From Bacilli bacterium (GTDB lineage: Bacteria; Bacillota; Bacilli; Bacillales; Amphibacillaceae): 51,655 nt of DNA. The stretch spans positions 1 to 51,655 of the forward strand of contig JAAYTF010000141.1 in NCBI GenBank assembly GCA_012518125.1, given 5' to 3'. A model generated the notes under the pieces. It had not been told where the DNA came from, made no database searches, and saw only the letters and a program-made list of their open reading frames with translations. The position numbers were made by a program, and so were the translations under genes. Of this stretch, positions 25,828-26,823 are shown piece after piece. Every line of letters starts with the position of its first letter. Positions within the stretch are counted from its first letter, which is position 1.

Positions 25828-25983
25828 TTATGAAGTCCTCATATGCCAGTCGGCCAAAAGCTGCTTTTTTAAATTGCGTCGGTAAATTTCCAGCTCGATC
25901 AATTCGATGAACGCTTCATCCAAATTTAATTGTTTCGCTTTTTCGAACGTTTCAAGTAACAGTCGGTTCGATAAAGATTCCAT
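25828..25983 (-). CDS. sda: Sda-like sporulation histidine kinase inhibitor (51 aa; below the ORF-track cutoff)
   Basis: Reverse-strand translation MESLSNRLLLETFEKAKQLNLDEAFIELIELEIYRRNLKKQLLADWHMRTS, like Sda ([35 protein letters not shown]); RBS aaagggg; adjacent to yqeG as in B. subtilis. Confidence 0.9.
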   Translation of the reverse strand: MESLSNRLLLETFEKAKQLNLDEAFIELIELEIYRRNLKKQLLADWHMRTS

Positions 25984-26074
25984 TTTGAATACCCCTTTAA
26001 ACACTTAAAACTCTTTTTTAATAAAATACTAAAGATAATTTAACACGAATAGAGTCATCGTACAAGTGCGGCAC

Positions 26075-26185
26075 TTATGCACATATTATTCACACTACAC
26101 GTGGATAACCGTTGAACAATGCTTGTAAACGTGATGGTAGAAAGAATTTGTTTGTATATAAAGTTATCCACAAGGTTGTGGATGT
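26075..26185. promoter_or_regulatory. Cluster of five DnaA-box-like 9-mers between sda and yqeG
   Basis: TTATGCACA (26075-26083), TTATTCACA (26086-26094), CGTGGATAA (26100-26108, reverse), TTATCCACA (26164-26172, perfect), TGTGGATGT (26177-26185, reverse). Confidence 0.85.
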
Positions 26186-26298
26186 GCGAAATTTGTCGAA
26201 AGGTTTTAACAAGATTTACACTTTCGCTATTATTAAACAAGTTTTGCGATTATAATATAATAGAGATTGATGAAGGAAATAATTGGGGTGAATCATGG

Positions 26299-26823
26299 TT
26301 GCGATTATTTTTGCCTAAACGATATGTACGATCCATCTTTGAATTGAAGCCAGATTGGTTTAAACAAGAGGGCATCAAAGGAATTGTCATTGATTTAGAT
26401 AATACATTGATTCCGTGGGATGTCGAGGAAGTTCCCGACGAAGTGAAAGCGTGGCTGTCATCCTTAACCGAACAAGGTTTGAAAGTCGCGATCATTTCGA
26501 ACAACAGCCGCGCCCGCGTGAGCCATTTCGCCAAACCGATCAACATTCCGTACATTCACCGTGCAAAAAAACCGTTCAATTTCGGTTTTAAACGCGCCGC
26601 CAAAATGATGGGAACATCCCCGGGGGAAATGGCGGTCATCGGCGATCAGTTGGTTACGGACGTGTTTGGCGGGAACTATTTCGGAGCATACACGATTTTA
26701 GTGCGACCTCTCGTCGATTCGGATGCTCCGGCAACGAAAATCAATCGATTGATCGAATCGTATATAAAAAGACACTTATACCGTACAGGAAAATGGTCAA
26801 GGAGTGTAATCGATGAAAGCTGA
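26299..26823 (+). CDS. yqeG: YqeG family HAD IIIA-type phosphatase
   Basis: LRLFLPKRYVRSIFELKPDWFKQEGIKGIVIDLDNTLIPWD; TTG start preferred (RBS ggggtga); the ORF-track start at 26119 would place coding sequence over the DnaA boxes. Confidence 0.92.
   Translation: MRLFLPKRYVRSIFELKPDWFKQEGIKGIVIDLDNTLIPWDVEEVPDEVKAWLSSLTEQGLKVAIISNNSRARVSHFAKPINIPYIHRAKKPFNFGFKRAAKMMGTSPGEMAVIGDQLVTDVFGGNYFGAYTILVRPLVDSDAPATKINRLIESYIKRHLYRTGKWSRSVIDES

Follow-up and report, generated by a model that had tools for sequence, protein, structure and literature searches.

A DnaA-box array and a predicted Spo0A box accompany the sda promoter in a Bacilli genome and its relatives

Results

The sda-yqeG region

The DNA analysed here (the window) is a stretch of 51,655 nucleotides from a member of the Amphibacillaceae (contig JAAYTF010000141.1, assembly GCA_012518125.1), in which sda and yqeG lie divergently on either side of a region with the following features.

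25828-25983, minus strand: sda coding sequence, 51 aa, ATG start at 25983, match to Pfam PF08970
26037-26065, minus strand: sda promoter, with -35 TTGTAC (26065-26060), extended TGn (26045-26043) and -10 TAAATT (26042-26037)
26075-26083, plus strand: DnaA box 1, TTATGCACA, adjoining the sda -35, conserved in position
26086-26094, plus strand: DnaA box 2, TTATTCACA, 2 nt from box 1, in the orientation opposite to that usual in relatives
26100-26108, minus strand: DnaA box 3, TTATCCACG, conserved at -64/-65 from the distal box
26153-26161, minus strand: DnaA box 4, TTATATACA, one mismatch, 2 nt from box 5 and divergent from it
26164-26172, plus strand: DnaA box 5, exact TTATCCACA, the distal anchor of the array
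26177-26185, minus strand: weak DnaA-like 9-mer ACATCCACA, two mismatches, not a conserved box
26192-26200, plus strand: Spo0A box (0A box) TTTGTCGAA, core TGTCGAA at 26194-26200, 135 bp from the -35
26299-26823, plus strand: yqeG, HAD-family phosphatase, divergent neighbour of sda, probable TTG start

The sda product matches the Pfam Sda family (PF08970) with an E-value of 2.2e-16 and 59.7 bits against a cut-off of 22.6, and it is also matched by the PDB Sda chains 3d36_C and 1pv0_A. Sda blocks the sporulation kinases and the activation of Spo0A. The sda promoter, from which transcription is predicted to start near 26030, follows a pattern present in 107 of 111 orthologous sda promoters. In a column profile of 82 genomes, aligned in the direction of sda, the TG, T, A and T of an extended -10 of the form TGnTAnnnT are 99-100% invariant; the TTGT letters of the -35, which is usually TTGTTC or TTGTCC in this set, are invariant by construction of the alignment. 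Downstream of the 0A box no conserved -10 was found that would mark a yqeG promoter at a fixed position. A longer yqeG frame of 234 aa, opening at an ATG at 26119, crosses the DnaA boxes and its upstream part is spurious.

A dense cluster of DnaA boxes

An earlier note on this DNA had described five DnaA-box-like 9-mers between sda and yqeG, 92-202 bp from the sda start, with the first two separated by only 2 nt. Re-reading the sequence recovers all five at the positions given there, confirms the distances to the ATG at 25983 and places the closely spaced pair at 26075-26083 and 26086-26094. Three of the five are exact TTATNCACA boxes within 98 bp, one carries a single mismatch, and the last, ACATCCACA, carries two and was rejected as a conserved DnaA box because relatives have no conserved box at its offset. 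The note had overlooked box 4 (26153-26161), the conserved partner of the box at 26164, and also the Spo0A box, the rigid coupling to the promoter and the missing LexA operator that are described below.

Boxes with at most one mismatch occur 38 times in the whole window against 42 expected, which is background, so that scattered boxes of this kind carry no meaning. The genome-wide scan of box density that the earlier note had proposed gives a different picture for the exact boxes, whose triplet stands far above chance: pattern searches found 58 exact boxes in the 2.24 Mb genome, and Poisson arithmetic gives an expectation of about 2e-4 per genome for an exact triplet within 98 bp. Elsewhere in the genome, at least three close exact boxes are found only in the dnaA/oriC region (contig C43) and at a site at the end of contig C180. 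Over the 700 bp upstream of yqeG the cluster score is 11, compared with a maximum of 2 in 60 dinucleotide shuffles.

The site on C180 (L002:3045-3207, G000) lies upstream of a metA-like gene, a homoserine O-succinyltransferase by resemblance; it comprises three exact boxes and two near ones, and nothing equivalent is listed among the top DnaA regions of B. subtilis. Two further exact boxes lie just downstream of tsaD (gcp) on contig C33 (L003:1408-1496, G000); in B. subtilis, too, gcp is followed by a strong DnaA cluster (PMC4447404), so that this cluster may be conserved in place.

The cluster follows sda

Of 130 non-redundant yqeG upstream regions, drawn from relatives and named species, 91 have a divergent sda according to an HMM search and 39 have none; these genomes are related, and counts across them overstate independence. 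The mean cluster score is 9.1 with sda (n=91) and 0.67 without it (n=39), and not one of the 39 sda-less yqeG upstream regions reaches a score of 5. A strong cluster is present in 88 of the 91 regions with sda, while in the remaining three (L041, L068 and L114) it lies beside a displaced sda, about 80 bp from that gene, which is itself 858-1314 bp away from yqeG. One of these records, L041, is titled Roseburia sp. 1XD42-34 and has a Bacillaceae sda-yqeG arrangement with Bacillaceae-like YqeG and Sda; it appears to be misnamed.

Searching whole genomes for members of the Sda family also recovered sda genes at sites distant from yqeG, for example in Sporosarcina, Bhargavaea and Psychrobacillus; these relocated genes share the array and the promoter, and in most cases the Spo0A box as well. 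Neither array, promoter nor Spo0A box was found at distant Sda paralogues; divergent members of the Sda family of this kind occur at other loci in several genomes (L172-L177). The DnaA cluster and the 0A box keep a fixed distance to the sda -35 and a variable one, of about 100-1110 bp, to yqeG. Several losses of sda coincide with a missing or degenerate spo0A (G013, G003, L059 and L105). Judged by these patterns of inheritance, the DnaA cluster belongs to sda and not to yqeG.

The array is locked to the promoter

Conservation of box spacing, which had likewise been suggested as a check, proved to be strict, with the array locked to the sda promoter across relatives. In the 82 aligned promoters box 1 starts some 16-18 nt ahead of the -35; its far end is mostly 17-18 nt from the -35, with a spacing that varies within about 1 bp. 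In the window it covers about -45 to -53 from the predicted start site and so occupies an activator position beside the -35. At the other end, distal box 5 is exact in 100 of 107 sda promoters and usually falls at -106 to -109 from the -35, with its start at about -107, and its divergent partner, 2 nt away at the offset of box 4, is present with at most one mismatch in 69 of 88 genomes. Box 2 of the window is inverted with respect to most relatives and therefore forms a head-to-tail pair with box 1 across the 2-nt gap.

The genome encodes a DnaA close to that of B. subtilis, which aligns to 8btg including the GGRDHTTVIHA of the DNA-binding domain, which is thus conserved. With an Sda gene, an above-chance array, a box adjacent to the -35 and DnaA itself, the window has the sequence features of a B. 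subtilis-type sda promoter, and its activation by DnaA is predicted on that basis.

The LexA operator is absent from one family

An exact LexA core, GAACN4GTTC, overlaps the -35 in 49 of 107 sda promoters and occurs at no other offset within the scanned stretch. Its distribution is uneven: 34 of 40 promoters of other families have it, compared with none of 21 in the family of the window, and the -35 of the window departs from the core at four positions. LexA is nevertheless encoded in this genome, and lexA is kept in all 16 tested genomes of the family. Two of the three most distant sda promoters that were read (L163 and L167) have the GAAC...GTTC arrangement on the -35, which makes loss in the family of the window more likely than gain elsewhere.

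A conserved, predicted Spo0A box flanks the DnaA array

An exact match to the published 0A-box consensus TGTCGAA (PMC10134886) stands about 20 bp past the distal DnaA box. The exact core is found in 102 of 107 orthologous sda promoters, in 98 of these 102 at -131 to -138 from the -35, and in none of five Sda paralogues; arithmetic over the 30 scanned positions puts its chance occurrence at about 0.2% per promoter. B. subtilis-like genomes (L121, L124 and L125) have it as well, and it accompanies sda where that gene is displaced or relocated. In the direction of the DnaA array, degenerate 0A boxes recur at offsets of exactly 10 bp (19 of 82 genomes; null maximum 5) and 20 bp (25 of 82; null maximum 6); in the window itself the tandem copies are degenerate only. 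Spacing of boxes by one helical turn is expected for Spo0A from the Spo0A-DNA structure 1LQ1. The genome encodes Spo0A, whose DNA-binding domain aligns over its length to 1fc3 and 1lq1 and matches 1fc3 closely.

The 0A box is absent at its usual spacing from the most distant sda promoters (L162, L163 and L167) and from L161, which indicates that it is not essential for DnaA control. Its distribution probably points to a later origin than that of the DnaA array, or else to loss from the most distant promoters. Upstream of yqeG in L137 and L138, which have Spo0A and no sda, TTTGTCGAA stands at -108 without DnaA boxes, as a remnant or by chance.

TGTCGAA is short, and Spo0A is its best but not its sole conceivable reader. 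LexA was rejected in this role, since the base after the core is A in 53 promoters and C in 48, there is no second half-site, and the LexA core has its own place on the -35. CodY, considered for the AATTT...AAATT flanks, was rejected on the TGTCGAA core by reasoning from a sequence profile.

Discussion

Activation of sda by DnaA is known and has been demonstrated only in B. subtilis, so that the DnaA part of the present locus is one more case of a known control. The B. subtilis promoter with its DnaA boxes was reportedly described by Burkholder in 2001. In vitro, the B. subtilis sda/yqeG region (region 7, with 8 boxes) is among the strongest DnaA binding regions, with a Kd of 0.15 uM for ATP-DnaA and 0.51 for ADP-DnaA, and full activation of sda needs boxes 1 and 2 (PMC4447404). 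What is new here is that the cluster follows sda, that it is locked to the promoter, that a Spo0A box stands at its far end and that the LexA operator is absent from the family of the window. For the Spo0A box the claim of novelty is provisional, since most subscription papers lay outside the literature search: the accessible literature on sda control, which deals with DnaA, LexA, proteolysis and codon effects, yielded no report of a Spo0A site at sda, and the original Spo0A regulon studies were beyond its reach.

Box positions, promoter geometry, co-inheritance with sda and the genes for DnaA, Spo0A and LexA are read directly from the sequence, from which we infer binding, activation by DnaA and occupancy by Spo0A. 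We consider it likely that the sda control region of the window is activated by the DnaA array and modulated by Spo0A~P, and that it lacks the SOS/LexA input. DnaA, probably as ATP-DnaA, would assemble cooperatively, starting from the distal pair at 26153/26164 and reaching the boxes beside the -35 (26075-26108), and would activate the sda promoter during initiation or disturbance of replication. Spo0A~P would bind at 26192-26200, flanking the distal DnaA anchor, and modulate the same nucleoprotein assembly. That its site keeps a constant distance to the array and is remote from the promoter suggests action of Spo0A via the DnaA assembly and not directly on RNA polymerase.

Several other explanations can be weighed against this proposal. 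The best of them, which we nonetheless think unlikely, is that sda is controlled by DnaA only, with TGTCGAA read by a factor other than Spo0A or forming a structural part of the DnaA array. The 0A and DnaA motifs do resemble each other at the B. subtilis oriC (PMC5295017), and DnaA boxes and promoter persist without the 0A box in the three most distant promoters. The element is, however, TGTCGAA and not TGTGGATAA, with the exact core in nearly all promoters and in full agreement with the published consensus (PMC10134886), and the degenerate copies phased at 10 bp resemble the 0A box rather than a DnaA box.

Much less probable is a reading in which the cluster and the Spo0A box serve the yqeG operon and sda is a bystander. 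The earlier note had allowed for action on yqeG as well as on sda, and one review does list yqeG-M among the direct DnaA targets of B. subtilis (PMC8203912), with which such action would fit, as would the position of the 0A box on the yqeG side. Yet the cluster is absent from 39 of 39 sda-less yqeG upstream regions, and both elements stay with a displaced or relocated sda, keeping their distance to its -35 while that to yqeG varies. A cluster that vanishes without sda and moves with it implies that control of yqeG is not what selection preserves, whereas the other half of the suggestion, that the boxes serve sda, is strongly supported by DnaA binding in B. subtilis and by the fixed spacing to the sda promoter in relatives.

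Similarly improbable is a DnaA-titration site, of the kind proposed for box clusters near oriC, that lies beside sda by accident, although the two roles are not exclusive. The density of exact boxes here and the further clusters at oriC, downstream of tsaD and upstream of the metA-like gene fit titration, but a titration site has no need of promoter spacing precise to 1 bp or of following one gene, and the sda array shows both. That DnaA-like 9-mers cluster by chance in AT-rich intergenic DNA, a view which draws on the background frequency of isolated one-mismatch boxes in the window, is refuted almost beyond doubt by the margin over the shuffled sequences and by conservation at fixed spacing beside sda, the three displaced genes included.

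Returning to joint control by DnaA and Spo0A, the arrangement suggests that Spo0A probably acts back on the gene of its own inhibitor. The sign of this effect is a guess at repression, by analogy with oriC (PMC5295017): high Spo0A~P would most likely weaken activation by DnaA, and a cell committed to sporulation would stop making Sda. Because Sda blocks the activation of Spo0A, repression of sda by Spo0A would create a double-negative loop by which sporulation is locked in; with activation, the loop would instead be negative and could limit pulses of Spo0A~P. In its broadest form the proposal, towards which we lean with some reserve, is that an ancient 0A box, fixed in place with respect to the DnaA array, gives Spo0A~P direct control of the gene of its upstream inhibitor. 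The promoter would then be a conserved point at which signals of replication through DnaA, of commitment to sporulation through Spo0A and, in certain families only, of DNA damage through LexA are integrated, and the family of the window would have lost the damage input.

It has long been asked how cells couple the decision to sporulate to their replication state, and Sda and DnaA are the known link. The combined DnaA and Spo0A arrangement accompanies sda in roughly one hundred spore-former genomes; if the proposal is right, a fixed Spo0A site at sda closes a loop between the master regulator and its inhibitor, and this feedback could shape Spo0A pulses and commitment. With its missing LexA site, one family lends itself to a natural comparison of how checkpoints are wired.

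Compared with the B. subtilis sda promoter, the window has the same divergent sda/yqeG arrangement, an array of DnaA boxes with some adjacent to the promoter and a gene of the Sda family, but fewer boxes than the 8 reported there and no LexA operator on the -35. Control of B. subtilis sda by LexA has been reported (PMC11925247, PMC5445613); the gene is the same and relatives carry the operator core at the -35, in keeping with this control, whereas the core is absent from the window and its family despite an encoded LexA. The closest parallel for the Spo0A site is the B. subtilis oriC, whose DnaA boxes are interspersed with Spo0A boxes (PMC5295017). There the target is an origin, while in the window it is a promoter, with a separate 0A site that does not overlap a DnaA box; in both, Spo0A and DnaA sites share one nucleoprotein region through which commitment to sporulation would be linked to the action of DnaA.
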